From Natronomonas halophila (GTDB taxonomy: Archaea > Halobacteriota > Halobacteria > Halobacteriales > Haloarculaceae), in the NCBI RefSeq assembly GCF_013391085.1, contig NZ_CP058334.1, forward strand, positions 1,488,001 to 1,552,000: a stretch of 64,000 nucleotides of DNA, written 5' to 3'. Made by a program: the position numbers and the translations under genes. Below the pieces are notes generated by a model. It was not told the origin of the DNA. It saw only the letters and a list, made by a program, of their open reading frames with translations, and searched no databases. Of this stretch, positions 22,716-37,432 are shown piece after piece (position 1 is the first letter of the stretch; each line of letters starts with the position of its first letter).

Positions 22716-23447
22716 TCAGTTCGGCCGCGCTCGCGTTTCGACCGCATCCAGCAGGTCCGCCAGCGCGTCGGCCGATTCCTCGAACAGTTCCTCGCCGAGT
22801 TCCGCGTCCCCGTTCCGCGGGTCCCCGACCGCGCCGCTGTCGGTGAACTCCGCGGAGTCGTAGGTCAGGTTCGTCCCGTGGAGCCACTCGCCCCACGAGT
22901 CGGCACCGTCCTCAGCAGCCGCTTCGGTTCGGTCCTCGTGGACCAGTTCGGGACGGAGATACCGCATGAAGGAGGTTTCGGCGGGGCCGCCGTGGCCCAT
23001 CTCCTCGGTCGCGACCGCGTCGAACCACGTGAAAGGTACCGCGTAGGCGGTTTCGTCGCGGGTCACCCGCCCACAGAGTTCACGGAGGGCATCGACGTTG
23101 CCACCGTGGCCGTTGACGACGACGACCCGGTCGAGGCCGTGATGGGCGAGGCTCTCGATCGTCTCCCGGACGTACGAGCGGAAAGTGTCCTCGGAGACCC
23201 ACAGCGTCCCCTCGAAGTCGCGGTGTTCCTCGGCGATACCGACCGGAATCGTCGGGGCGACGACCGCCTCGTTCGGGGCCTCCTCGGAGTAGCGTTTCGC
23301 ACCCTCCTCGGCGATGGCTTCGGCGGTCATGAAATCGACGCCGAGCGGTGCGTGGGGGCCGTGCTGTTCGGTGCTGCCGACAGGGAGGACCGCGAGGTCG
23401 GCATCGGCATCGCGGATATCCGTCCACGAGGATTCGGCGAGGTGCAT
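22716..23447 (-). CDS. Creatininase family amidohydrolase (possibly ArfB-like formamide hydrolase)
   Basis: A 243-residue creatininase-fold metal hydrolase. Metal ligands lie in LPVGSTEQHGPHAPLGVDF (residues 21-39), VVVVNGHGGNVDALRE and MGHGGPAETSFMRYL. Archaeal members include ArfB, which deformylates FAPy in F420/riboflavin biosynthesis; that role is plausible here given other pterin/F420-linked genes, but a general amidase is equally possible. It is convergent with DUF5790. Confidence 0.85.
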   Translation of the reverse strand: MHLAESSWTDIRDADADLAVLPVGSTEQHGPHAPLGVDFMTAEAIAEEGAKRYSEEAPNEAVVAPTIPVGIAEEHRDFEGTLWVSEDTFRSYVRETIESLAHHGLDRVVVVNGHGGNVDALRELCGRVTRDETAYAVPFTWFDAVATEEMGHGGPAETSFMRYLRPELVHEDRTEAAAEDGADSWGEWLHGTNLTYDSAEFTDSGAVGDPRNGDAELGEELFEESADALADLLDAVETRARPN

Positions 23448-24201: not shown

Positions 24202-25002
24202 TTACTCGCGGCGCGGCATCAACGCCATCGCTGCCAAGAGGAACCCGGCGCCGACGCTGAAGATGACGACGTACATGAGCCCCGAGGTCCGTTCTTGGAA
24301 GTACTCGCGGTCCTCGCTGACCTGTTCGTAGCCCTCGACGTCCGTCGAGAGCAGGACGGTGCTGTTGTCGGGGAACGTCGCGACGTACTCGGTGCCGCCG
24401 ACGGTTACGACCCCACCTTCTTCGAGGCCGATGGATTCGGCGGTCGTCTCCTCCCAGGTCAGAACGGCCTCGCTGGAGGAAACCGACTGGACCGTTTTCG
24501 TGGTGCCGCCGTGTTCGATGCTGTCGCCGACCGAGAACTGCTCTTGGTCGGGGTCGGGGAGGTACTCATCGAGCGGCTGGGTCGTGCCGTTCTCATAGCG
24601 GACGAACTCGGTGCCGTCCTCGCGCTGGTAGGTCTGGTTGTCGACCCGCGAGTCGTTCTGGAGGATGGCCCCGACGTCGAACTCCTGAGTCAGGGTAAAG
24701 GAGTTCGGTTCCTCCCCCGACTCGACGGTGACGTTGTACTGGTCGCCGCCGTACTCGACCACCGAGTTGTTGGCGAACGTGGTCTCCTGTTCGACCGTCG
24801 TGTTGTACGCCAGACTCGCCTCGCCCTCGCCGAGTTCGGCGACGGTGTACGTCGTACCGTTGGCTTCGAGCGTGTCCCCTTGCTGGTAGGTATCACCCTC
24901 GATATCCATCGCCGGTTCTTCCGCGACTGCCATCACCGAATAGGCGCTGCCAGCCATGACGAGGAAGAAGGCGAGATAGATCGCCGCCCATCGTCGTTGC
25001 AT
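24202..25002 (-). CDS. Surface-exposed membrane protein with repeated beta units
   Basis: A 266-residue protein with an N-terminal signal/anchor (residues about 5-26), a large extracytoplasmic domain and a C-terminal membrane helix (about residues 240-262), with cytoplasmic MPRRE at the end. The ectodomain has repeating units of type 'GD-x-E-x-GG/NGTTY-x-V' (QQGDTLEANGTTYTV, FANNSVVEYGGDQYNV, SVGDSIEHGGTTKTV, LEEGGVVTVGGTEYVA), suggesting stacked beta domains. Several N-glycosylation sequons occur. ATG at 25002 sits directly before the signal helix. The function is unknown. Confidence 0.82.
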   Translation of the reverse strand: MQRRWAAIYLAFFLVMAGSAYSVMAVAEEPAMDIEGDTYQQGDTLEANGTTYTVAELGEGEASLAYNTTVEQETTFANNSVVEYGGDQYNVTVESGEEPNSFTLTQEFDVGAILQNDSRVDNQTYQREDGTEFVRYENGTTQPLDEYLPDPDQEQFSVGDSIEHGGTTKTVQSVSSSEAVLTWEETTAESIGLEEGGVVTVGGTEYVATFPDNSTVLLSTDVEGYEQVSEDREYFQERTSGLMYVVIFSVGAGFLLAAMALMPRRE

Positions 25003-25221
25003 ACGCGTTGAAATGAAAGGCCGGCGTATAGTCGTTACTAACTCACGCGAACGCGGCACACACTGCTTGCGTACGCGTGAATGGTAATGGAGTTAAAAGC
25101 CAATATAGACCAACACATCCCAGTGTTTGGAACTGAAGGGCACGGAAATGGCGCTGCGTTATGAAGGGTCCGTATATGACCTGCACCGGTGTTAGGGGAA
25201 CTGCTTCCGTAGATAGGGGAA

Positions 25222-26253
25222 ATGCGACGACCACATCTAACCGGCGCCGCAACGGTAGCGCTCCTGCTGCTCGTCGGCATCGTGGCCTTCGGCGCGGTGA
25301 CGCCCGCCGCCGCGAGCCACGTCGAGGACGGCGCCAACTACACCGTTATCCTGCCCGAAAAGTCCGACCACCTCCCCGGTGACCAAAACCAGGGGAACGC
25401 CAGCATCATCCACAGCGCCGCCGGTGGTGACGCCTTTAGCGACACCGCTCCGAACGGCTTCGAGACGTTCGACCGCCTGGAAATCCGAAGCGAGGCGGTC
25501 GATTTCTCCGGCTGTGACAGCCCGAACACGGCCGTCTTCGGAATCGACCGCGGGAACAACAACTCCGGTACCCAAACGGACACCGACCTCCTCAATCACA
25601 TGAAACAATCGAACTTCCGGGAAAACAGCCTCGAAGTCGTCTTCTACAGCGAAAGCGACTTCGGCGGCAATCCCACCTATCTCAACCCCGAGGACGCCAT
25701 CCTCGCGGTTCAGGGTGCCGGCTCCTCCGGCGGCCCCTGCTATACGATGCCCAGCGACCCCGGCTGGTATCAGATTACCGGCACCCTCGAAGGCACCACC
25801 GAGGACGGCGAATCGGTAACCATCAACGCGGTATCTCACTACTTCGCCATCTGCGAGGGCTGCCACGACGAGGCGACCGCACGCGAAAAGCTCGGTCCCC
25901 GACCCTCCTCGGAGTCGAGCGCGGACCCGGCGACGGCAACGCCGACACCCACGCCGACAGCCACGGCGACTGCAACCCCGACGCCCGATGGTAACGAAGC
26001 GACCGAGACCGAAGCGGCGACGGCCACTGCGACCGCCGCGCCGACCGCGACCGCCGAACCGACCGAGGACAACTCCGACACTAACGACGGCGGGGGTCCG
26101 ACCGACGGCGGAACCAACGGCGGCGCCGACACACAGGACGACAACGACGACGGTATTCAGCGGACGCCCACGCCCGGCGAGGGTCCCGGATTCGGAGCAG
26201 TCGTCGGCCTGCTGGCCCTGCTGGCCAGTGGCCTGCTGGCCCGTCACCGATAG
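25222..26253 (+). CDS. Secreted four-cysteine family protein, PGF-CTERM anchored (paralogue A)
   Basis: 343 residues. Signal peptide (1-31, ending TPAAAS), a globular domain (about 38-228), a Thr/Pro/Ala-rich stalk (about 235-315) likely O-glycosylated, and a C-terminal PGF-CTERM signal (GPGFGAVVGLLALLASG then RHR) for archaeosortase processing and lipid anchoring. The globular domain has four cysteines (C98, C173, C211, C214) and motifs SDHLPGDQN, FGIDRGNNNSGT and DPGWYQITG, with the CxxC in HYFAICEGCH. I do not recognise the domain. It is the first of five tandem paralogues, closest to B. Confidence 0.88.
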   Translation: MRRPHLTGAATVALLLLVGIVAFGAVTPAAASHVEDGANYTVILPEKSDHLPGDQNQGNASIIHSAAGGDAFSDTAPNGFETFDRLEIRSEAVDFSGCDSPNTAVFGIDRGNNNSGTQTDTDLLNHMKQSNFRENSLEVVFYSESDFGGNPTYLNPEDAILAVQGAGSSGGPCYTMPSDPGWYQITGTLEGTTEDGESVTINAVSHYFAICEGCHDEATAREKLGPRPSSESSADPATATPTPTPTATATATPTPDGNEATETEAATATATAAPTATAEPTEDNSDTNDGGGPTDGGTNGGADTQDDNDDGIQRTPTPGEGPGFGAVVGLLALLASGLLARHR

Positions 26254-26407
26254 CCGCTGACGCCGCTTTTCTCGAAGTTCGCGACGTAATCGCCACGAAA
26301 ACTGCCTCCTTACTGCGGCGAGTTGTATAACCCGTTAACCACCGGTATAAACCCCGGCATATATCCTGCAAAGTCGTTTTGGTTGGGGTTAACATTGCAA
26401 AGAGCGT

Positions 26408-27499
26408 ATGAGAACGGACCACTCGATTACCGGTTGGCCGCGGGCCGCCACCGCCGGTCTCGTGATAGCGGTCGTCGCGGTCGCCTTGCTTGCGGCGGTG
26501 GCAGCCACGCCCGCCGCGGCGAATCACGGGACCGACTCCGGAAACTACACCGTCGTGCTCCCGCACGACAGCGACCACCTGCCGGGCAACCAGAACGAAG
26601 CGAACGCCAGCATTCGGAACTTCTCGACTGCCGGCGACCGCTTCGACGAGGAAGGCGCCCCGGAAGGCTTCGAGACGTTCGATTACCTCGAAGTCAGAAA
26701 CGAGGCGATAGACTGGTCGAACTGTGGTAGCGCGAACACGGCCGTCTTCGGCCTCGACCGCGGCAACAACAACAGCGGCACCAAGACCGATACCGACCTC
26801 CTCGAACACATGAAGAACTCCAACTTCCACGAGGACGGTATCGACGTCACCTTCTACAACGAAAGCGACTTCGGTGGCAACCCGACCTACCTCAACCCCG
26901 ACGACCAGATAATCTCGGTTCAGGGTGCCGGCTCCTCCGGCGGCCCCTGCTTTACGATGCCCAGCGACCCCGGCTGGTATCAGATCAAGGGGATGGTCAG
27001 GGGAACGACCGCGGACGGCGAAACCCTCAAGGTGCAGGCGAACTCCCACTACTTCCCCATCTGCGAGGGCTGTCACGACAACGAGACCGCCTACGAAAAA
27101 CTCGGCCCGCCGCCGAGCCAGCGAAGCGGGAGCCAGGAGACGCCGACGCCAACGCCGACCCCGACACCGACCGCGACCGCAACCGCGACACCGACGCCGA
27201 CACCCGATGACGGCGGCAGCGGCGGCGAGGGAGCCAACGATGACACGCCGACATCGACGCCAACCCCGACGCCAACGCTAACACCCGCGGACGGCGATAC
27301 CGGGAGTTCCGGCGGAAATGACGGAGGAAGCAACGACGGTGGAAGCGATAGCGATAGCGACGATGGTGTTACCGGTGACGATGCCGGTTCCGACAAGATT
27401 CAGGGCACGCCGACACCCGGTGCCGGCCCCGGGTTCGGGGCGGCACTCGCACTCGTCACACTCCTCGGGAGCGCGCTGCTCGTCCGTCGACGAGGCTAA
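26408..27499 (+). CDS. Secreted four-cysteine family protein, PGF-CTERM anchored (paralogue B)
   Basis: 363 residues. Signal peptide (about 1-38), domain with SDHLPGNQN, FGLDRGNNNSGTKTDTD, GGNPTYLNPDDQI, DPGWYQIKG and HYFPICEGCHDN, then a TPTPTPT stalk, a Gly/Ser/Asp-rich spacer and a PGF-CTERM end (GPGFGAALALVTLLGSALLV then RRRG). It is very similar to A (same four cysteines and CEGCH box). A TATA-like GGTATAAACC (26343-26352) and GCATATATCC lie in the 154-bp gap, so it probably has its own promoter. Confidence 0.88.
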   Translation: MRTDHSITGWPRAATAGLVIAVVAVALLAAVAATPAAANHGTDSGNYTVVLPHDSDHLPGNQNEANASIRNFSTAGDRFDEEGAPEGFETFDYLEVRNEAIDWSNCGSANTAVFGLDRGNNNSGTKTDTDLLEHMKNSNFHEDGIDVTFYNESDFGGNPTYLNPDDQIISVQGAGSSGGPCFTMPSDPGWYQIKGMVRGTTADGETLKVQANSHYFPICEGCHDNETAYEKLGPPPSQRSGSQETPTPTPTPTPTATATATPTPTPDDGGSGGEGANDDTPTSTPTPTPTLTPADGDTGSSGGNDGGSNDGGSDSDSDDGVTGDDAGSDKIQGTPTPGAGPGFGAALALVTLLGSALLVRRRG

Positions 27500-27605
27500 C
27501 CCTGTCGGCGGTCACGTTTGACCGAGTGCCCTGCCAACAGTAAACATAAACACCCCCACATATCCAGCAATAGCCTTAGCCCCTCTGTTTTCCTTTGTGC
27601 CGCAT

Positions 27606-28697
27606 ATGCGTAGAGCCAAGCAACTGAGCGTAACCCTGCTGACGACCCTATTGGCGACATCGCTTGTCGCCGGCGGCGTCGCTTTCGGCGTGTCGCCGGT
27701 CGCGGCCTACCATCCGAGCGACGCCGAGGACTTCACCGACGAGTCCAACTTCACGGTCGTACTGCCCCACCAGTCCGACCACTATCCGGGGAATCAGAAC
27801 AAGCAGAACGCAAGCATCCGGTACAACGTCGTCGGTGCGGAGGCATTCCAAGAGCAGGGCGCCCAGGACGGCCTCTACCTCGACTGGGTCATCGTCCACG
27901 CCGAGTACGAGGGCGTCGAATGGATCGACTACTCCGCCTGTAGCACGGACAACACCGCGGCGTTCGGCTTCGACCGCGGGAACAACAAATCGGGCTACAA
28001 GTACGACGAGGACCTCGTCTCGAAGCAAAAGAAGGTCGAGTTCAAGAAGGGCGGCATCGTCATCAACTTCTACAACTGGGGCGACTTCGCCGGCGATCCG
28101 CCGATAATGCTCCCTCAAGACGCCATCGTGGCCCAGCAGGGTGCCGGTTCCGCCGCAGGCCCCTGTCTGACGATGACCGAAAAGCCCGGCTGGTATCAGG
28201 TCACCGGCTTCGCGAACGGGACGGTCAACGACAACGCTCGCGACGAACAGCCCTCCGATAGCGCCGAATACATCGATCTTCAGTTGCGTTCGACCTACGT
28301 CTACGTCTGTGAGTGCGACAGCGAACAGGAGGCCCGCGAACAACTCGGCCCGCCGCCGAATGAGGGCGGACCGACGACGCCGACCTCGACCCCGACGCCC
28401 GCACCGACGACGGAGACCCCTGCTCAGACCGCGACGCCGGAAGAGAACACCCCCCAGCAGACGGCCACGCCAGCGAGCACCGAGCCGCCACAGACCGAGA
28501 CACCGGCGAGTACGGAACCACCGCAAACCCAGGCACCGGTTAACACCGAACCGCCACAGACGGAGCCGTCGGGGGCATCCGGCAGCGGAGGTCCCAATCA
28601 GCTGACCCCGACGCCGGGTGAGGGCCCCGGCTTCGGTGCCGTCGCCGCGCTGGCCGCGCTGCTCGCGAGCGGCCTCATCGCGCTCCGCCGCCGGTAG
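27606..28697 (+). CDS. Secreted four-cysteine family protein, PGF-CTERM anchored (paralogue C, second subfamily)
   Basis: 363 residues. Signal peptide (about 1-34), domain with SDHYPGNQNKQNAS, FGFDRGNNKSG, KPGWYQVTG, and YVYVCECDSEQEAREQLG, where CxC replaces the CxxC of A/B/D. Cysteines at 112, 187, 235 and 237 keep the same 75-residue spacing between the first two as in A. The stalk repeats the unit ASTEPPQT. It ends GPGFGAVAALAALLASG then RRR (PGF-CTERM). It groups with E. ATG 27606 is preferred; a GTG 9 bp upstream is possible. Confidence 0.88.
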   Translation: MRRAKQLSVTLLTTLLATSLVAGGVAFGVSPVAAYHPSDAEDFTDESNFTVVLPHQSDHYPGNQNKQNASIRYNVVGAEAFQEQGAQDGLYLDWVIVHAEYEGVEWIDYSACSTDNTAAFGFDRGNNKSGYKYDEDLVSKQKKVEFKKGGIVINFYNWGDFAGDPPIMLPQDAIVAQQGAGSAAGPCLTMTEKPGWYQVTGFANGTVNDNARDEQPSDSAEYIDLQLRSTYVYVCECDSEQEAREQLGPPPNEGGPTTPTSTPTPAPTTETPAQTATPEENTPQQTATPASTEPPQTETPASTEPPQTQAPVNTEPPQTEPSGASGSGGPNQLTPTPGEGPGFGAVAALAALLASGLIALRRR

Positions 28698-28835
28698 ACC
28701 AGCCACCCCGTTTTCCGCTTTTCTCGCACGTATCTCGTTGTATAGTGTGAACTCGGACCGTGGTGAGCGTTACCGTCTATTTCCAGTGATTGATAAAGGA
28801 CTTTAGCGGTGGAGTGGTTCGGGACGGGTACTGAG

Positions 28836-29828
28836 ATGGACGAACGAAGACGCATATCGGCGACGAGGGTCGTGACGCTGGCTTTCTTTTCGCTGGCGGC
28901 GACCGCCGTCCTGTTCGGCGCGCTGGCTGGCCCGGCCGCCGCAGCACACGATAGCCCCGGCAACTACAGCGTCGTGCTCCCGGAGGAATCCGACCACCTG
29001 CCCGGTGACCAAAACCCCGCGAACGCGAGCATCCAGCACTTCGCGGAGACGGGGTCCAGTTTCGACGGCAAGCCCGCCGACCGCCTCGAAGTGATGAAAT
29101 GGCTCGTCATTTCGAGCGACGAAGTCGACTTCAGCGGGTGTACCTCCAGCGACACCAACGCTCTCGGTATCGACCGCGGGAGCAACAACTCCGGAACCCA
29201 AAACGACGACAGCATCCTACAGAACATGCTGGATTCCGGCTTCCAGGAGGACAAGATCTGGGTCGAGTTCAACGGCGAGGACGACTTCGGCGAGACCGTC
29301 TCCATCTCGCGTGAGGACTCCATCATCGCCGTCCAGAGCGACTGTTATACGATGCCCAGCGACCCCGGTTGGTACCAAATCAGCGGGAAAATCAACGGGA
29401 CCGGCCCCGACGGAAACTTCTTCGAGGTGACGCTGGATTCCCACTACTTCGCCGTCTGTGAGGGCTGCCACGACGAGGCGACCGCCCAGGAGAAACTCGG
29501 CCCCCGTCCCGGCGAAGGCTCGACGAACGACGAGACGCCGACGGCGACCGCAACGGCGACCGCAACCCCGACGCCGACCGCAACGGCGACCGAAGCCGTC
29601 GCGACCGAAACACCGTCATCCACCGAAGCGGCGACCGAAACCGCGACCGCGGCGCCCGAGGCCACCGAAACCCCCACTCGGACTGCGACGGCGACCGAGG
29701 CCGCAGATGGGAACGGCGATGATGGCCTCGCAGCCACGCCAACCCCGGGTGAAGGACCTGGATTCGGCGCCGTGGCCGCACTCGTTGCGCTGCTCTCCGG
29801 CGCAGCGCTCGTTCGACGTCGTCGATAG
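28836..29828 (+). CDS. Secreted four-cysteine family protein, PGF-CTERM anchored (paralogue D)
   Basis: 330 residues. Signal peptide (about 1-36, ending GPAAAA), domain with SDHLPGDQNPANAS, LGIDRGSNNSGTQ, DPGWYQISG and HYFAVCEGCHDEATA. It lacks the GAGSSGG segment before the second cysteine (QSDCYTMPSD instead). Stalk of TATATPT/TEAATET; PGF-CTERM at the end. It belongs to the A/B subfamily. An in-frame GTG at 28809 would lengthen it, but the charged region before the signal helix favours ATG 28836. Confidence 0.88.
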   Translation: MDERRRISATRVVTLAFFSLAATAVLFGALAGPAAAAHDSPGNYSVVLPEESDHLPGDQNPANASIQHFAETGSSFDGKPADRLEVMKWLVISSDEVDFSGCTSSDTNALGIDRGSNNSGTQNDDSILQNMLDSGFQEDKIWVEFNGEDDFGETVSISREDSIIAVQSDCYTMPSDPGWYQISGKINGTGPDGNFFEVTLDSHYFAVCEGCHDEATAQEKLGPRPGEGSTNDETPTATATATATPTPTATATEAVATETPSSTEAATETATAAPEATETPTRTATATEAADGNGDDGLAATPTPGEGPGFGAVAALVALLSGAALVRRRR

Positions 29829-29964
29829 ACAAAGAAATCCTGTTTTCGGCCCGGAGAAACCCTCTCAGAGACGGATTATATTTCCCCCAGACGGTCTGGC
29901 ATTCATAAATCCCCTCGTATGCGGAGCGACAAGGTTAGACGAGTCGTCCGCACCGATACACGCT

Positions 29965-31044
29965 ATGAGGGACCAATACCCGTGCGGACGGTTCGGAGCA
30001 CTGCTGTTGGTGGGGATGCTCGTGGCGGTCGTCTGTCTCGCTGCCGCCCCTGTCAGTGCGAACGAACACACGAAGGAGAACGCGGTGAACGTCACGGAGG
30101 AGGCCAACTTCACCGTCGCGTTCCCGTTCCAGACCGACCATTATCCCGGTGACCAAAATCAAGAGAACGGCAGTATCCAGTATTTCTTCTCGCCGGAGGA
30201 CTCCTTCGAGAAACTCGGCCTCGACGGTCAGGGGGCGTTCGGTGATTACCTCATCATCGATGCGAACTGGATAGATTACTCCGCCTGCGACGTCGACAAC
30301 ACCGCGGTCTTCGGCATCGACCGTGGGAACAACAACTCCGGCACCAAAATCGACCAGGACCTCGTCTCGAAACAGAAGAACGCCGACTTCCGCGACGACG
30401 GCATCACCATCGAGTTCTACGACTGGGGCGATTTCGCCAACGACCCGCCGTACATGCGCGCACAGGACGCCATCATCGCCGAACAGGGTGCCCGCTCCGG
30501 TGACGGCGCGTGCCTGACCGTCACCAACGAACCCGGTTGGTACCGGATTCAGGGGTTCCTCAACGGGACCGCCGCCGACAACGGACCCGACCAACAGCCC
30601 TCCGATGACGCCAAACAGGTCGCGGGCATGGCATTATCGAACTACATCTACGTCTGCGCGTGTGACAGCGAGCAGGAGGCCCGCGAGCAACTCGGCGCGC
30701 CGCCGAACGAGCGAACCACGGCCGACTCGACACCGACGCCAACGCCGACATCGACGGCAACCGCGACGCCGACACCTGAACCCGAAACCGAGACAGCGAC
30801 ACCCGTCCCATCGACCGCAACGGCCGCGCCGACCGAGGCGGCAACCCCGACCGCGACGCCCGCCGAACCCGACAACGAATCCCCGACGCCGACCGCCACG
30901 GCGGCCGGCGGGGCCGACGGGACCACCGGCGGTAGTAACGCCAACAGCGTCGGAACGCCGACACCTGCCGAAGGACCCGGCTTCGGCACCCTCCTCGCCC
31001 TGCTTGCGTTGCTCACGAGCGGCCTGCTCGTTCGTCTCCCCTAA
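29965..31044 (+). CDS. Secreted four-cysteine family protein, PGF-CTERM anchored (paralogue E, second subfamily)
   Basis: 359 residues. Signal peptide (about 1-32), domain with TDHYPGDQNQENGS, FGIDRGNNNSGTKIDQD, EPGWYRIQG and YIYVCACDSEQEAREQLG (CxC type, like C). Stalk of TPTPTPT/TATATPT and a PGF-CTERM end (GPGFGTLLALLALLTSG then RLP), which is less basic than usual. The true start is ATG 29965 just before the signal helix; the open frame continues upstream only as an overlap with D. It is the last of the tandem set before the ABC operon. Confidence 0.87.
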   Translation: MRDQYPCGRFGALLLVGMLVAVVCLAAAPVSANEHTKENAVNVTEEANFTVAFPFQTDHYPGDQNQENGSIQYFFSPEDSFEKLGLDGQGAFGDYLIIDANWIDYSACDVDNTAVFGIDRGNNNSGTKIDQDLVSKQKNADFRDDGITIEFYDWGDFANDPPYMRAQDAIIAEQGARSGDGACLTVTNEPGWYRIQGFLNGTAADNGPDQQPSDDAKQVAGMALSNYIYVCACDSEQEAREQLGAPPNERTTADSTPTPTPTSTATATPTPEPETETATPVPSTATAAPTEAATPTATPAEPDNESPTPTATAAGGADGTTGGSNANSVGTPTPAEGPGFGTLLALLALLTSGLLVRLP

Positions 31045-31183
31045 CGCTCCGAGGACCACGCATTCGGTCGGTTCTATCGGGCCGTAGCGGCACCAGCGGC
31101 GGAAAACCGGCAGTATGCTCTTAAATAGCCGGACAACACCAGCGAAACACACATTTGTTGAAGTCCGAAAGGGAGGCACACAC

Positions 31184-32620
31184 ATGGCTGACGTGCCAGA
31201 GAACGAACAGCAAGACGAAAACGAGGGGCGGCTAGACCGGCGCTCAGTCCTGAAATACGGCGGAACGGGAGCGCTGACGGCCGGCCTGGCGGGGTGTCAA
31301 ACCGCTGAGAATCCGGTCCCCGGGTCCAACCTTCGCGTCGAAGAGGAACCGGAGAACACGTCCAACGGTGGCGGCGGTGACGGGATTCTCTCCGATGAAA
31401 CGATTACAATCGGCGTCTTGGCGCCGATGAACCTCCCGCTTGGGGTCTCGATGTGGAAAGCCGCCCAGATGCGGCGGGACATCATAAACGACAACGGCGG
31501 CATCCTCGGCGCGAACGTCGAGGTCAAACTCGGCAACACCGAAGTGTCGCCGGGGACCGCCCAGAGCGAACACCAGCGGCTCACCGTCCAGGAGGGCTGT
31601 GATTTCACGACCGGTATCTTCCTCGGGTCGGCGCTCCTGCAGACGATGCCGTCGATCGCCAACCAGGAGACCATCCACCTGACGACCGGGTCCGCGGACC
31701 CGCGCGTCGGGCAGCTCGTCTCCAAAACCGACGACTTCGGGTCCACCGAAGAGAAAAGCAGCTACGAGCGCTTCAAATACCACTTCCGCGTCGGCCCGAT
31801 TCACCTGCTGGACCTCGCCGACGCGATGCTGGAGTTCATCGAGAACAGAAAGGAGGAGTACGGCTGGGAGAAGGCCGCACTGCTCACCGAGAACCTCGGC
31901 GAGTTCACACCGTACGCCGAGCGTCTCTCGGAGCGCCTCTCCAGCGTCATCGACGTGCCCATCAAGCAGCGCCCCGGCGGCGTCAGCGACTGGTCGCCGC
32001 TCTACAACGAAATCGAGAACGCCGGCTGCGACATCGCTATCATCGGGATGGCGCTGGGCGGCACGACGGCCGTCAACCAGTGGGCCCAACAGCAGCGGAA
32101 CTTCGAGTTCGGCGGCATCCACGTGCCCGCACAGGCCTACAGCTACTGGGAGAGCACCGGCGGCAACGTCGAACACCTCTTCACGATGAACGCGATGACG
32201 CCGCAGACGGAGAACACGCCGAAGACCCAGCCCTTCGTTCAGGATTACATCGAACGCTTCGACGAGGTGCCCATCTACACCGGCCCGCTGACCTACGACG
32301 CGATCAGCGTCATCAAGCAGGGCATCGAGGACACCGTCGAAGGCGAGGACATGGAGACCCTGCCCGACGCCGACACCATCATCCCCTATCTGGAGGATGG
32401 CACCTTCTCCGGCGGGACGGTAATCGCTGAAGCGCAGTTCACGCCGCCGGATGCCAAGTACGCCCACGAACCCCAGTGGACCTCGATGGCCGAAACCGGC
32501 GTCCCCGTCTTCCAGCAGTGGCAGATGGACCCCGAGATTCGCGAGGACTACGGGACCATGCACTCCATCGCACCGCAACAGAACAAGACCTCGGACAAGA
32601 CCATCCCGGAGTGGCTATAA
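31184..32620 (+). CDS. LIV-type ABC transporter substrate-binding lipoprotein (Tat)
   Basis: A 478-residue periplasmic-binding-fold type I protein (Leu/Ile/Val, amide or urea type). Twin-arginine motif DRRSVLKYGG (residues 18-27) with lipobox LAGC (C38), so it is exported folded and lipid-anchored. A disordered Glu/Asn/Gly linker (about 45-72) precedes the ligand-binding fold ITIGVLAPMNLPLGVSMWKAAQM. GGAGG-like GGGAGGC lies about 8 nt before the ATG, an unusual Shine-Dalgarno for this organism. It is the first gene of a five-gene uptake operon. The ligand is not predictable from sequence. Confidence 0.92.
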   Translation: MADVPENEQQDENEGRLDRRSVLKYGGTGALTAGLAGCQTAENPVPGSNLRVEEEPENTSNGGGGDGILSDETITIGVLAPMNLPLGVSMWKAAQMRRDIINDNGGILGANVEVKLGNTEVSPGTAQSEHQRLTVQEGCDFTTGIFLGSALLQTMPSIANQETIHLTTGSADPRVGQLVSKTDDFGSTEEKSSYERFKYHFRVGPIHLLDLADAMLEFIENRKEEYGWEKAALLTENLGEFTPYAERLSERLSSVIDVPIKQRPGGVSDWSPLYNEIENAGCDIAIIGMALGGTTAVNQWAQQQRNFEFGGIHVPAQAYSYWESTGGNVEHLFTMNAMTPQTENTPKTQPFVQDYIERFDEVPIYTGPLTYDAISVIKQGIEDTVEGEDMETLPDADTIIPYLEDGTFSGGTVIAEAQFTPPDAKYAHEPQWTSMAETGVPVFQQWQMDPEIREDYGTMHSIAPQQNKTSDKTIPEWL

Positions 32621-32623
32621 CCC

Positions 32624-33538
32624 ATGTCACAGATAATAACCGCACTTCTGGCTGCGACGTTCATCAGTGCGCTGTACGCCATCATCGCCATCGGCTTCAC
32701 GCTGATTTTCGGCGTCGGTGGCATTCTGAACTTCGCTCACGGCGCCTTCATCACCGTCGGTGCCTTCGCCGCCTTCATCGTCTCCAGCGGTTCCGGCTTG
32801 GGGTTGCCGATTATCCTCGGCCTGCTGGCCGCAACCCTCGCCGGTGCTGCCGTCGGCGGCGCGACGTATCTCGGCGTCATCAGATACGTCAGAACGCGGC
32901 CGGTGACCGTCCTGATTCTCACGCTGGTCATCGGCTTCTTCATCATGTACGCCCTCAACATCTTCACCGACGAAATCATGGGCGTCGACCCCCTGCAGAT
33001 TCCCGTCCCACCGGTCATCGGGACGGAAAGTGCCATCAACGGCGCAATCTCCTTTATCGGCCCCTCGACACTCAACTCGCTTTTCATCTTCACGACTTCG
33101 TGGGTTCTCATCGGCGCACTCTACTACTTCGTTAACTCCACGCGCACTGGCCGTGCCATTCTCGCAGTCAGTATGAGCGACAAGGGCGCGGCACTCGTCG
33201 GCATCAACGCCGAGAAAATCAACCTCATTACCTGGGTCCTCGCGGGCGCCTTCGCCGGCTACGCCGGCGTCCTGCTTGCGGGTGACCTCGGCGGCGGCAG
33301 TTGGCTGATGGCCATCGAGCCGCCCGCACCGCTGGTTCTGTCCTTCGCCATCGTCATTCTCGGTGGCCTCGGTTCCATCAAGGGCAGCGTCGTCGGTGCC
33401 TACATTATCGGCTTCTTCGAGACGTTCACCGTGACGTTCATCAGCTCGCAGCTGGCGGGGATTTCCTCGCTCGTCCTGCTGTTGGTGTTCCTGCTCGTGA
33501 AGCCTGAAGGACTCTACGGACGGGAGGCAGCAGAATAA
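32624..33538 (+). CDS. LIV-type ABC permease, LivH family
   Basis: A 304-residue membrane permease with about eight helices. Family markers: GFTLIFGVGGILNFAHGAF (residues about 24-42) and, in the C-terminal third, VILGGLGSIKGSVVGAYIIG. It pairs with the LivM-type protein downstream to form the pore. The gene begins 3 bp after the binding-protein stop. Confidence 0.93.
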   Translation: MSQIITALLAATFISALYAIIAIGFTLIFGVGGILNFAHGAFITVGAFAAFIVSSGSGLGLPIILGLLAATLAGAAVGGATYLGVIRYVRTRPVTVLILTLVIGFFIMYALNIFTDEIMGVDPLQIPVPPVIGTESAINGAISFIGPSTLNSLFIFTTSWVLIGALYYFVNSTRTGRAILAVSMSDKGAALVGINAEKINLITWVLAGAFAGYAGVLLAGDLGGGSWLMAIEPPAPLVLSFAIVILGGLGSIKGSVVGAYIIGFFETFTVTFISSQLAGISSLVLLLVFLLVKPEGLYGREAAE

Positions 33539-33540
33539 CA

Positions 33541-34764
33541 ATGGCAACGAAAACACCCTTCGAAGGCGACGTCGAACAGCGTCGTCGCGAGGCAGTCAAA
33601 GAAAAGCTCCAGTTCAGCGAGATGGCGCTCCGGCACAAGCTCGGCGTGTTCGGCCTCGTCGCACTCGCACTACTGCCGACGGTCCTCAAGCCGCTGGAGC
33701 TGAGCGAGTTCACGTACGTCCTGTTCCTGATGATGTTCGCGATGAGCTGGGACGTCGTCTCCGGCTACACCGGCCAACTCAGTTTCGGCCACGCGTTCTT
33801 CTTCGCCATCGGCGGCTACGGAACCTCTGTGCTCAGTTCACAACACGGCGTCCCCGTGTTTCTCAGTATCATCCTGGCGACGATACTCGCCGCCATCGGC
33901 GGCGTCCTCATCGGCGTTCCGGCCCTTCGACTCTCCGGGCCGTACCTCTCACTGGTGACGCTCATCGCACCGCTGCTGCTCTATCAGTCCTTCATCCTCT
34001 TCAGCGAAGGGACGTTCTTCGCGCCGGACGGGCTGGGCGGGACCAGCGGCCTGACCGAACAGCCGCCACAGCTCGTCGGCCTCGGTAGCGGCGCGGTCAT
34101 CCAGGTCGGCGAGTTCTGGATACGCGAGGTCGGGAAGTACTACGTGGCCTTCATCGCCCTGCTCATCGTGCTTGCGGTCTGCTATGCGGTTACCCGTTCG
34201 TCGGCCGGCAGCGTCTTCACCGCGATTCGCGAGGACGAAGACGCCGTCCGCTCGTCGGGGCTCAACCCCGCGAAGTTCAAGATGTTCGCTTTCGTCCTGT
34301 CGGCGGCCGTCGGCGGTTTCGCCGGCGCCGTCTGGATGCACGCCGGCGGCTTCCCGAACACGGAGAACCTCTTCGGCCCCGGTCGTATCGACCTGAGCGT
34401 CAACGTCATCGTGATGGCGATTATCGGCGGCATGGGCACCATCGTCGGTGCCGTCGTGGGCGCGACCCTGTTCGCGTTCGCGCAGGTCGTCGTCAGTTCG
34501 CTTACCTTCCAGGTGCCGGGAATCGGCATCCAGTTCGCCGACCTCGCGCCGCTGCCGACGTTCTTCTTCGCGATGCTGATCCTCGTGTTCATGCCTCGCG
34601 GGGTCGTCCCCGAAGGCATCGACCGCGCACGCTACCTCCTCGCGCGCTACCGGGGCGAGGAACCGCCCGAACGCGTCGGCGGCGAGGGGAACTCCGCCGG
34701 CGACAGCGTCATCAAGAAGTATCGTCGCGAAATCGAGGAGATTCTCGGACGTGATAACAAATGA
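33541..34764 (+). CDS. LIV-type ABC permease, LivM family
   Basis: A 407-residue permease with a cytoplasmic N-terminal extension (about residues 1-38), about ten helices, and a polar basic C-terminal tail. Signatures are SGYTGQLSFGHAFFFAIGGY (about residues 75-94) and MAIIGGMGTIVGAVVGATLF (about 292-311), which contains the EAA-like loop contacting the ATPases. The start is 2 bp after livH; the stop overlaps the next gene by 4 bp. Confidence 0.93.
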   Translation: MATKTPFEGDVEQRRREAVKEKLQFSEMALRHKLGVFGLVALALLPTVLKPLELSEFTYVLFLMMFAMSWDVVSGYTGQLSFGHAFFFAIGGYGTSVLSSQHGVPVFLSIILATILAAIGGVLIGVPALRLSGPYLSLVTLIAPLLLYQSFILFSEGTFFAPDGLGGTSGLTEQPPQLVGLGSGAVIQVGEFWIREVGKYYVAFIALLIVLAVCYAVTRSSAGSVFTAIREDEDAVRSSGLNPAKFKMFAFVLSAAVGGFAGAVWMHAGGFPNTENLFGPGRIDLSVNVIVMAIIGGMGTIVGAVVGATLFAFAQVVVSSLTFQVPGIGIQFADLAPLPTFFFAMLILVFMPRGVVPEGIDRARYLLARYRGEEPPERVGGEGNSAGDSVIKKYRREIEEILGRDNK

Positions 34765-35552
34765 GCACCGACCAAGACCACCCATCCGACTTCGAAGAAC
34801 AGCAGTACGGCCCCGATGACGGCATCCTCGTCGCCCAAGACCTCCGCAAGGAGTTCGGGGGCCTCGTCGCCGTCGACGACCTCTCCTTTGCGGTTCAGGA
34901 GGGGGAAATCCTCGGCTTCATCGGCCCCAACGGCGCCGGGAAGTCGACGACGTTCAACTGCGTCACCGGCACCTACCAGCCGACGGGCGGCAACGTCTAC
35001 TTCAAAGGCCGCGACGTCACCGGCATCCCCGCCCACGACATGGTCAAAGAGGGGATGGCCCGGACCTTTCAGGACTTCGCGCCGCTGGAAGACCGGACCG
35101 TCGTCAAGAACGTCGAGCTTGCGCTCGCGCCGGACGAACTGTTCACCCTCTCCGGCGTCGGCGGCGAAACGGAGGCACTGGCCGAAGAGATCTGTCGCCG
35201 GGTCGGACTCGGCCAGGAACTCGGCCAGACGCCCTCCGAGTTGCCCCACGCCGGCATGCTGAAACTGGAAATCGCACGCGCCATCGCGACCCAGCCGGAC
35301 GTGATGCTCGTCGACGAACCCTTCGCCGGCCTCTCGGGCCAAGAGGTCGAGGAACTCTCCGAAGTCCTCGAATCCCTCCGACAACACGGGATGACCCTCA
35401 TCGTCGTCGACCACAACATGCACGGCCTGCTCAACCTCATCGACCGCGCCTTCGTCATCCAGTTCGGCGCGAAAATCGCCGAGGGAGAACCCGACGAAAT
35501 CAAGAACGATCCGAAGGTACAGGAGGCCTACCTCGGAGGTGACGAGATATGA
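34761..35552 (+). CDS. LIV-type ABC ATPase, LivG family
   Basis: A 263-residue ATPase. Walker A GPNGAGKSTT (about residues 55-64), Q-loop TFQDF, Walker B VMLVDEPFAGLS, H-loop VVDHN. The ABC signature is atypical: the region before Walker B reads ELPHAGMLKLEIARAI, where LSGGQ would be expected. It may therefore function asymmetrically with the LivF-like partner, which has a normal SGGEQ. The C terminus resembles LivG. ATG overlaps livM (ATGA). Confidence 0.9.
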   Translation: MSTDQDHPSDFEEQQYGPDDGILVAQDLRKEFGGLVAVDDLSFAVQEGEILGFIGPNGAGKSTTFNCVTGTYQPTGGNVYFKGRDVTGIPAHDMVKEGMARTFQDFAPLEDRTVVKNVELALAPDELFTLSGVGGETEALAEEICRRVGLGQELGQTPSELPHAGMLKLEIARAIATQPDVMLVDEPFAGLSGQEVEELSEVLESLRQHGMTLIVVDHNMHGLLNLIDRAFVIQFGAKIAEGEPDEIKNDPKVQEAYLGGDEI

Positions 35553-36328
35553 GCGCCGACGACTTCGAGTTCGAAACCACCAGCGACACGACCGACGCTG
35601 GCAGCACGAGCACGAAACAGGCCCAGACCGTCCTCGAAACCGAGGGCCTGAAAGTCTCCTACGGGAAGGTTCGAGCGCTCCGCGGCATCGACGTCACGGT
35701 CCGGGAGGGCGAAATCGTCTCGCTTATCGGCCCCAACGGCGCCGGCAAGACCACCTTCGCGAACACCGTCTCCGGGTTCCTCGATTACGACGGGAGCGTC
35801 CGCTACCGCGACCAGGAGGTCGCCAGAGTCGGGCAGAAAAACCTCGTCAATCAAGGCATGATTCACTGCACCGAAGAGCGAGACCTCTTCGGCTACATGG
35901 ACGTCGAGGACAACCTCGAGTTGGGCGGGTACCTCCAGGACGACCACATCATCGAGGAGCGCAAGGAGTTCGTCTACGACCTCTTCCCGCGCCTCGACGA
36001 GCGGCGCGAACAGAACGCCCGCTCGATGTCTGGCGGCGAACAGCAGATGCTCGCCATCGGCCGTGCGCTGATGGGCGACCCCGACCTGCTCATCCTCGAC
36101 GAACCGACCATCGGGCTGGCGCCGGTCATCCTGCAGGACATCGCGGACGCGCTGGACCCGATTCAGGAACGGGGCGTCACCATCCTGCTGACCGAGCAGA
36201 ACGTCACCTTCGCGCTGAAACATGCCGACCGGATGTACCTGCTCGAAAACGGCGAAGCCGTCAAGGAAGGCACGCCCGAGGAACTGCGGGGCGACGACTA
36301 CATCCGCGAGTCCTACCTCGGCGGCTAA
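35549..36328 (+). CDS. LIV-type ABC ATPase, LivF family
   Basis: A 259-residue ATPase. Walker A GPNGAGKTTF, signature RSMSGGEQQMLAIGRAL, Walker B LLILDEPTIGLAP, and H-loop-position residue in LLTEQN (Q/N instead of H, usual for LivF). A disordered N-terminal 25 residues precede the fold. ATG overlaps livG. It completes the operon; transcription likely stops before the sixth secreted-family gene, which has its own TATA box. Confidence 0.93.
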   Translation: MSADDFEFETTSDTTDAGSTSTKQAQTVLETEGLKVSYGKVRALRGIDVTVREGEIVSLIGPNGAGKTTFANTVSGFLDYDGSVRYRDQEVARVGQKNLVNQGMIHCTEERDLFGYMDVEDNLELGGYLQDDHIIEERKEFVYDLFPRLDERREQNARSMSGGEQQMLAIGRALMGDPDLLILDEPTIGLAPVILQDIADALDPIQERGVTILLTEQNVTFALKHADRMYLLENGEAVKEGTPEELRGDDYIRESYLGG

Positions 36329-36490: not shown

Positions 36491-37432
36491 ATGCGACTCA
36501 AAACGGCCGCCCTCCTCCTCACCCTCTGCTGTCTCTCGCTTGCCGTCTTCACCGGCGGCGCGACCGCTGCCCACGGCAGCGACAACACCAACTTCACGGT
36601 GACCCCGGAGGACCGAACCCCCGGCGCTAGCAACGTTAGCTACACGTTCAACGTCGAGTTGACCGACAACATGGGCCGCTATCCAGCCATCGCACGCCCC
36701 GAACGGTTCGTCTTCGCCCTCCCGGGAGGAACGCTCGAAACCTGCCGCGGCGAAAGCGGGATGTTCACCTCGACGACGAACTACGAATTATACCTCAAGC
36801 AGTACAACGGCAGCGGTTACGAGCGAGCGGATTACACGGTCGATGCCGTCGGCTGGGACGGCGACGCCGTCGAGTTCCGATTCGACTACGGCGAGAGCGA
36901 CGATCCACCCGAATACGCCGTCGACGATATCCTCGTTCTCGAACTCGACAGCTGTGTCGGCAATCCCGATTCCGAGGACTGGTATCAGGGCGCCGTCTAC
37001 GGCGAAGGGAAATCCCGACTCGGCGACAACGTCACGTTCGGCCCCACGGCCTCACACTACTTCGCCATCTGTGAGGGCTGTGAAAGCGACGCCGATGGGG
37101 AAAGCCAACTCGGACGGCCCCCTTCGGCGACGCCGACACCGACCGCGACGCCAACGCCGACGCCGACTGCAACACCCACTCCGATACCGACCGAGACGGC
37201 CACGCCCGAACCGGAGCCGACACCGACCGCGACGCCAACAGCGACCCAGACGCCGACCGCAACGCCGGACGACGGTGCCGAACAGGGCAGCGCGACCGCA
37301 ACCGAACCCGGAGGTGGAGCCGGAGAGCCGCCTATCGACCCCGACGTGTTCGGGATGGACCCGTTCGTCGTCGTCGGGTTCGTCGCCGGCCTCTCCATCG
37401 CAATCGCCGCACTCGGCGCGAGACGACTCTAA
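36491..37432 (+). CDS. Divergent member of the secreted four-cysteine family (F)
   Basis: 313 residues: signal peptide (about 1-27), domain (28-200), Thr/Pro stalk (about 207-265) and a C-terminal hydrophobic helix with RRL end that lacks the exact PGF motif (FGMDPFVVVGFVAGLSIAI instead). Overall similarity to A-E is low, but the pattern is retained: cysteines at 85, 155, 194 and 197 (spacing 70, 39, 3 versus 75, 38, 3 in A), EDWYQGAVYGEG matching PGWYQITGTLEG, and HYFAICEGC identical to A. Anchoring may use a different or degenerate sorting signal. Confidence 0.85.
   Translation: MRLKTAALLLTLCCLSLAVFTGGATAAHGSDNTNFTVTPEDRTPGASNVSYTFNVELTDNMGRYPAIARPERFVFALPGGTLETCRGESGMFTSTTNYELYLKQYNGSGYERADYTVDAVGWDGDAVEFRFDYGESDDPPEYAVDDILVLELDSCVGNPDSEDWYQGAVYGEGKSRLGDNVTFGPTASHYFAICEGCESDADGESQLGRPPSATPTPTATPTPTPTATPTPIPTETATPEPEPTPTATPTATQTPTATPDDGAEQGSATATEPGGGAGEPPIDPDVFGMDPFVVVGFVAGLSIAIAALGARRL

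Follow-up and report, generated by a model that had tools for sequence, protein, structure and literature searches.

What role do five tandem genes for secreted four-cysteine proteins play at the surface of Natronomonas halophila, and what do the importer genes next to them mean? The window analysed here is a stretch of 64,000 nt (positions 1488001-1552000 of the single-contig 3.21 Mb genome, NZ_CP058334.1). It carries an array of five intact open reading frames (A to E), arranged head-to-tail on the + strand at 25222-31044, and directly downstream a complete HAAT/Liv-type ATP-binding cassette (ABC) importer, of the type known for branched-chain amino acids, followed by a sixth paralogue. It was concluded that the array encodes predicted archaeosortase-anchored surface proteins, which are of a known kind; their ectodomain is undescribed, and their association with importers is notable. 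The sixth paralogue, four more copies elsewhere in the genome and the neighbouring importer were overlooked in the original prediction, which was made from the letters of this stretch. As a tentative answer, A to E may be surface accessory proteins that capture substrate and present it to HAAT importers. The array genes are as follows.

25222-26253, + strand: gene A, 343 amino acids (aa), domain at 25336-25905, CxxCH subtype
26408-27499, + strand: gene B, 363 aa, domain at 26543-27115, CxxCH subtype
27606-28697, + strand: gene C, 363 aa, domain at 27747-28358, CxC subtype
28836-29828, + strand: gene D, 330 aa, domain at 28962-29510, CxxCH subtype, most divergent
29965-31044, + strand: gene E, 359 aa, domain at 30106-30705, CxC subtype

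Alternative GTG starts are found at 27597 for gene C and at 28809 for gene D.

Architecture and predicted surface anchoring of the array proteins

Each array protein has a signal-peptide-like start (assessed by sequence inspection only), a four-cysteine domain of 183 to 204 residues, a Thr/Pro stalk and a PGF-CTERM end. The shared architecture of five head-to-tail genes had been predicted and was borne out: a profile search returned A to E with E-values of 1e-91 to 1e-105, far beyond chance, with a profile built from these same five sequences. Pairwise domain identity among A to E is 38 to 70%, the closest pair being A and B (70%), and C and E share 59%. All five proteins carry the motifs PG(D/N)QN and GWYQ/GWYR, as claimed. 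The third claimed motif, FG(I/L/F)DRGNNxSG, holds in general but not for gene D, which reads LGIDRGSNNSG instead of FGxDRGNNxSG. The spacing of 75 positions between the first two cysteines (C1-C2), described for A and C, is also found in B and E, and it is 68 in D. Four cysteines are found in all five; the domain ends with CEGCH in A, B and D and with C(E/A)CDSEQEAREQLG in C and E, just as first described. The two subtypes are therefore real, but they do not strictly alternate, since the order along the array is I-I-II-I-II. The nearest array (genome G122) has the order I-II-I-II by tree placement, so the alternation is partly real.

By hmmscan the Pfam PGF-CTERM model scored above cut-off in A to D; gene E reached 17.8 bits against a cut-off of 18.8, and 22.7 bits, above cut-off, in the genome search. 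Two archaeosortase A genes (TIGR04125, 317 and 315 bits) are encoded in the genome. The signal peptide, stalk, PGF-CTERM end and archaeosortase A genes support the predicted display of A to E at the cell surface. In common with other PGF-CTERM/archaeosortase A substrates (TIGR04126, PF18204), the array proteins have a signal peptide, a Thr/Pro stalk, a PGF motif, a hydrophobic helix and a basic tail, but the likeness is limited to the anchor, and no described family includes the ectodomain. The two archaeosortase A genes lie side by side (G000:C1:754165-757036) and are adjoined by another PGF-CTERM protein (757281); a solitary family gene (748149-748709) is some 5.5 kb away. ARAGORN reported a tRNA-Ser (anticodon act) at 30879-30974 on the minus strand within gene E. 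It sits in the repetitive stalk of that gene and was judged to be a false match.

The ectodomain family, its fold and its cysteines

Besides the PGF-CTERM end, no Pfam or NCBIfam model scored above cut-off for the array proteins. Lipocalin_4, Mucin and SslE gave weak matches that were rejected as below cut-off or due to composition. The two domains searched against PHROGs had no match, the family profiles matched no PDB sequence, a scan of viral contigs detected no relative of the domain and a BFVD structure search returned nothing at E<=0.001. No description of the family was found in paper searches. The claim of an unrecognised family thus stood up to the profile searches. Ten family loci are present in the genome: the five array genes, the sixth member in the window (36491-37432) and four elsewhere. 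Seven of the nine PGF-CTERM matches in the genome are family members (the five array genes, 747801 and 3195877). The sixth paralogue has a CEGC motif but no GIDRG motif, and its C-terminal segment is hydrophobic but has no PGF motif; it was weak with the five-sequence profile and scored 1.3e-32 with a broad profile, which includes it.

Strong members occur in 19 of 146 genomes and 5 of 22 genera of the GTDB family, with up to 20 matches per genome. Carriers include Natronomonas gomsonensis, Natronomonas sp. CBA1123, Haloglomus halophilum and Haloglomus irregulare, and several genomes of the genus Natronomonas itself are without any member. With the strong matches included, the broad profile (A4) was positive in 37 of 391 Halobacteria genomes, from 20 of 86 genera; the weak matches (E 1e-11 to 1e-3) are spread over many Halobacteria. 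Those weak relatives that were inspected are surface proteins whose domain, of ~140 residues, has no cysteines; its motif (V/I)GIDRG(D/N)(D/N)xSG aligns with FGIDRGNNNSG of the window proteins. This IGIDRGDDxSG domain has the core motif in common with the family, and a PGF-like C-terminus in several cases; it differs in having no cysteines and no CxC end, and its matches are weak only. Comparison of the cysteine-free with the four-cysteine profile gave 97% probability (E 9.5e-11, 95 columns), which is supportive but not independent because the cysteine-free sequences came from the same profile. No Pfam family was found in the cysteine-free domain, apart from the distant double-domain relative L041 with a DUF2808 match at 3e-7. 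DUF2808 (PF10989) has no match in A to E or elsewhere in the genome. These alignments are best read as placing the four-cysteine family within a haloarchaeal surface domain, as a branch that has expanded and is stabilised by cysteines.

AlphaFold models of the A and E domains, run with 23 sequences, had a predicted local distance difference test score (pLDDT) of 80.5 and a predicted template modelling score (pTM) of 0.77 for A, and 83.2 and 0.78 for E. Both models are immunoglobulin-like (Ig-like) beta-sandwiches. The top structural match for both was TTHA1873 (7wwo; Z 9.2 and 8.8), and BslA (4bhu), YcnI (7me6) and UafA followed at Z ~8. TTHA1873, YcnI and BslA share the sandwich at Z 8 to 9 with both models, but only 4 to 10% identity, and many sandwiches, Gram-positive surface adhesins and pilins included, lie at Z 7 to 8.4. 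Since the best Z-scores are only slightly above this sandwich background, they make the predicted fold class credible but do not demonstrate kinship. The ectodomain may be a binding domain, as the original prediction called it.

The cysteine count is even in 109 of 111 distinct ectodomains (four in 90, six in 14, two in three, eight in one with two domains, and none in one). In the first of the two odd cases, L021/L073, there is an apparent stalk frameshift and no PGF end, unlike in the orthologues; in the second, L071, the extra cysteine is the last residue, beyond the membrane helix. Two family genes of Natronomonas sp. CBA1123 (L072:3107-4156 and L073:9141-10142) are without a PGF end, with apparent frameshifts in the repetitive stalk that may be assembly errors or true truncations. 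On two different branches of the tree (L054 with L060; L055) the CxC pair is replaced by GDF, and C1 and C2 are kept. Because of the even parity and the loss of the CxC/CxxC pair as a unit, disulfides C1-C2 and C3-C4 are predicted, which in A would be C98-C173 and C211-C214. Of the two modes of stabilisation first proposed, disulfides thus gained support, and a metal site is disfavoured by the even parity.

Amplification through tandem duplication is supported. The suggestion that the array is diversifying did not hold: four array genes are one-to-one orthologues across three closely related species in the tree, and the ratio of nonsynonymous to synonymous substitution rates (dN/dS) of the domains in close orthologues is 0.08 to 0.23, with no sign of diversifying selection. 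These values are similar to or slightly above those of the importer's binding protein (0.10 to 0.14). Pairs between the window and G122 (dN 0.18 to 0.27, dS 0.66 to 0.78) are more diverged and give a less sharp test. The stalks are more variable than the domains. Judged from these ratios, the set of array genes is old and has been held by purifying selection instead of diversifying rapidly.

The adjacent importer and other family loci

The genes flanking the array are as follows.

24202-25059, - strand: uncharacterised protein whose two ends carry hydrophobic segments
31115-32620, + strand: substrate-binding protein (Peripla_BP_6; PF13458, 5e-25) with an RR signal and a lipobox-like cysteine
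32624-33538, + strand: LivH/UrtB-like permease, importer operon
33541-34764, + strand: LivM/UrtC-like permease, importer operon
34761-35552, + strand: LivG-like ATPase, importer operon
35549-36328, + strand: LivF-like ATPase, importer operon
36491-37432, + strand: sixth family member, directly downstream of LivF, divergent, found by profile match

The substrate-binding protein gene has a second possible start at 31184. Its product belongs to the Peripla_BP_6 family, and PF13458/PF13433 found no match in the array ectodomains. The array adjoins the five-gene HAAT operon in Natronomonas, g6 (inferred to be Haloglomus), g9 and g21, in either co-directional or divergent orientation, and the position of the sixth paralogue directly after LivF is kept in related genomes. 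The substrate-binding protein was found at E<1e-120 in 16 of the 146 genomes, and each of the 16 has family members; part of this co-occurrence is shared ancestry. The 24202-25059 protein has no family match above cut-off, and at almost every syntenic locus seen, array-less ones too, its gene has stayed next to the array or the importer. A creatininase-family amidohydrolase gene (22716-23447, - strand) lies near the array and is kept in syntenic loci of the genus.

Across 57 family loci in 11 genomes, a Peripla_BP_6 gene was found within 7 kb of 19 loci, with 2.1 expected and a maximum of 10 in 20,000 random placements; 11 of the 19 are the main array locus, which limits the independence of the count. 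The others are further types with different members and different importers (L077; L142; L148/L146; L078/L084/L089/L144/L147). L148, which L146 matches, has on one strand an IclR regulator, a family gene, a substrate-binding protein, LivH, LivM, LivG, a small protein and hydantoinases A and B. In another locus type, genes for acyl-CoA dehydrogenase, enoyl-CoA hydratase and short-chain dehydrogenase lie around. These acyl-CoA genes and a published report (PMC11948995) led us to consider a possible connection with the metabolism of long-chain fatty acids or wax esters, but some Natronomonas genomes are without the family and the overlap in genus may reflect kinship. HVO_0513/HTH_10 regulators lie beside solitary family genes (L054:8086-8781, L069:13729-14409 and others), a recurrence that suggests dedicated regulation of these genes. 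An aldo/keto reductase gene also recurs beside solitary family genes (L055:9974-10948 and eight other loci).

Possible roles of the array proteins

Among the roles considered, the accessory role in uptake ranks highest, because the array abuts a HAAT operon in four genera and because further family members pair with different HAAT importers; we hold it as a tentative preference, and part of our expectation is assigned to none of the roles. In this mechanism the paralogous proteins would each hold a disulfide-braced Ig-like sandwich on a Thr/Pro stalk, which is probably O-glycosylated, and archaeosortase would fix them to the membrane through PGF-CTERM. The sandwich domains may capture, concentrate or present small organic solutes at the surface and may hand them over to, or cooperate with, the lipid-anchored substrate-binding protein of the importer, which would take them up. 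Different paralogues would cover different ligands or conditions. A precedent by analogy is ZepA of Anabaena, a secreted PEP-CTERM protein that serves solute uptake (PMC10957091). It shares the sortase-type C-terminal signal and the uptake role, but differs in its zinc, its histidine site and its bacterial host, and it serves here as an analogy only. TIGR04281, a PGF-CTERM-anchored ABC substrate-binding protein, likewise ties a PGF-CTERM surface protein to ABC import. However, only the stalk and anchor of the array proteins match it (15 to 20 bits against a cut-off of 325), the array domains match no substrate-binding-protein family and the adjacent importer has its own such protein. It is more doubtful still that these genes represent an undescribed class of archaeal uptake systems, in which sortase-anchored, disulfide-braced paralogue sets feed HAAT importers and each importer has its own set.

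Several observations weigh against the accessory role. The importer is retained without the array at that place in the draft genomes G124, G125, G127 and G133. The first three are syntenic: the array is absent between the 24202-type and substrate-binding genes, and a gene of the sixth-paralogue type still follows the ATPases. In G133, a short contig, the array is also absent at that place. The importer can therefore do without the array, whose role is at most that of an accessory. For 38 of the 57 loci, mostly single copies, no Peripla_BP_6 gene was found within 7 kb, and the 19 importer-linked loci did not all arise independently. It may be that array and importer lie together but have no common function: the gaps of 70 to 155 bp leave room for separate promoters, and the two are divergent in other genera. 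The predicted Ig-like sandwich fits adhesins and envelope proteins too.

The last point leads to the next most probable explanation, which has a smaller but still considerable share of our expectation: A to E may be adhesins or envelope (S-layer-associated) proteins whose sandwich binds cells, the S-layer or polymers, with paralogues that vary the surface and the importer as a bystander. The anchor, the stalk, the resemblance to Gram-positive surface adhesins and pilins at Z 7 to 8, the dominance of the family among PGF-CTERM matches and the many solitary copies with no importer close by all agree with it. The recurrent pairing with different HAAT importers does not, nor does the lack of diversifying selection, and the adhesin Z-scores are within the range of any beta-sandwich. 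We regard a sensory role as unlikely. The domain would then recognise an extracellular compound and, with an adjacent transcription regulator, switch on uptake and catabolism. In 14 loci an HVO_0513/HTH_10 regulator lies close to a family gene, most often a solitary one (several adjacent and divergent), and the IclR regulator of L148 is directly upstream of its family gene, but such regulators are more simply read as local gene regulators, and no such regulator was found directly next to the array in the window. The proteins have no transmembrane signalling domain, and with a single C-terminal anchor and the expected archaeosortase cleavage, inward signalling is hardly feasible.

Two further explanations start from the cysteines. 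CxxC is used by thioredoxin-like enzymes, and the near-invariant CxC or CxxC, apparently paired with itself, could be a catalytic or redox-sensing dithiol at the surface. We consider this improbable: the predicted fold is a beta-sandwich, not thioredoxin-like, the pair was lost twice with the remaining domain kept, and it is located just ahead of the C-terminal helix of the sandwich. The exact CxxCH in A, B and D could also mark c-type cytochromes for extracellular electron transfer, to which we give hardly any credence. CxxCH was found in only five of the members surveyed, a young clade of two species, nearly all others having CxC, and a PF01578 search for a cytochrome c assembly protein, positive in 11 of 14 controls, returned nothing in this genome; on both grounds haem attachment is unlikely.

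The accessory role in uptake thus remains our tentative preference. Seven of the nine PGF-CTERM matches of this genome fall in one family that is absent from the protein-family libraries used, and its cysteine parity makes for a clear prediction of the disulfides of a surface protein that faces hypersaline conditions. If the link to the importer is true, much of the archaeosortase cargo in such archaea would gain a function, and there would be a testable case of surface proteins that aid ABC importers where cells lack an outer membrane.

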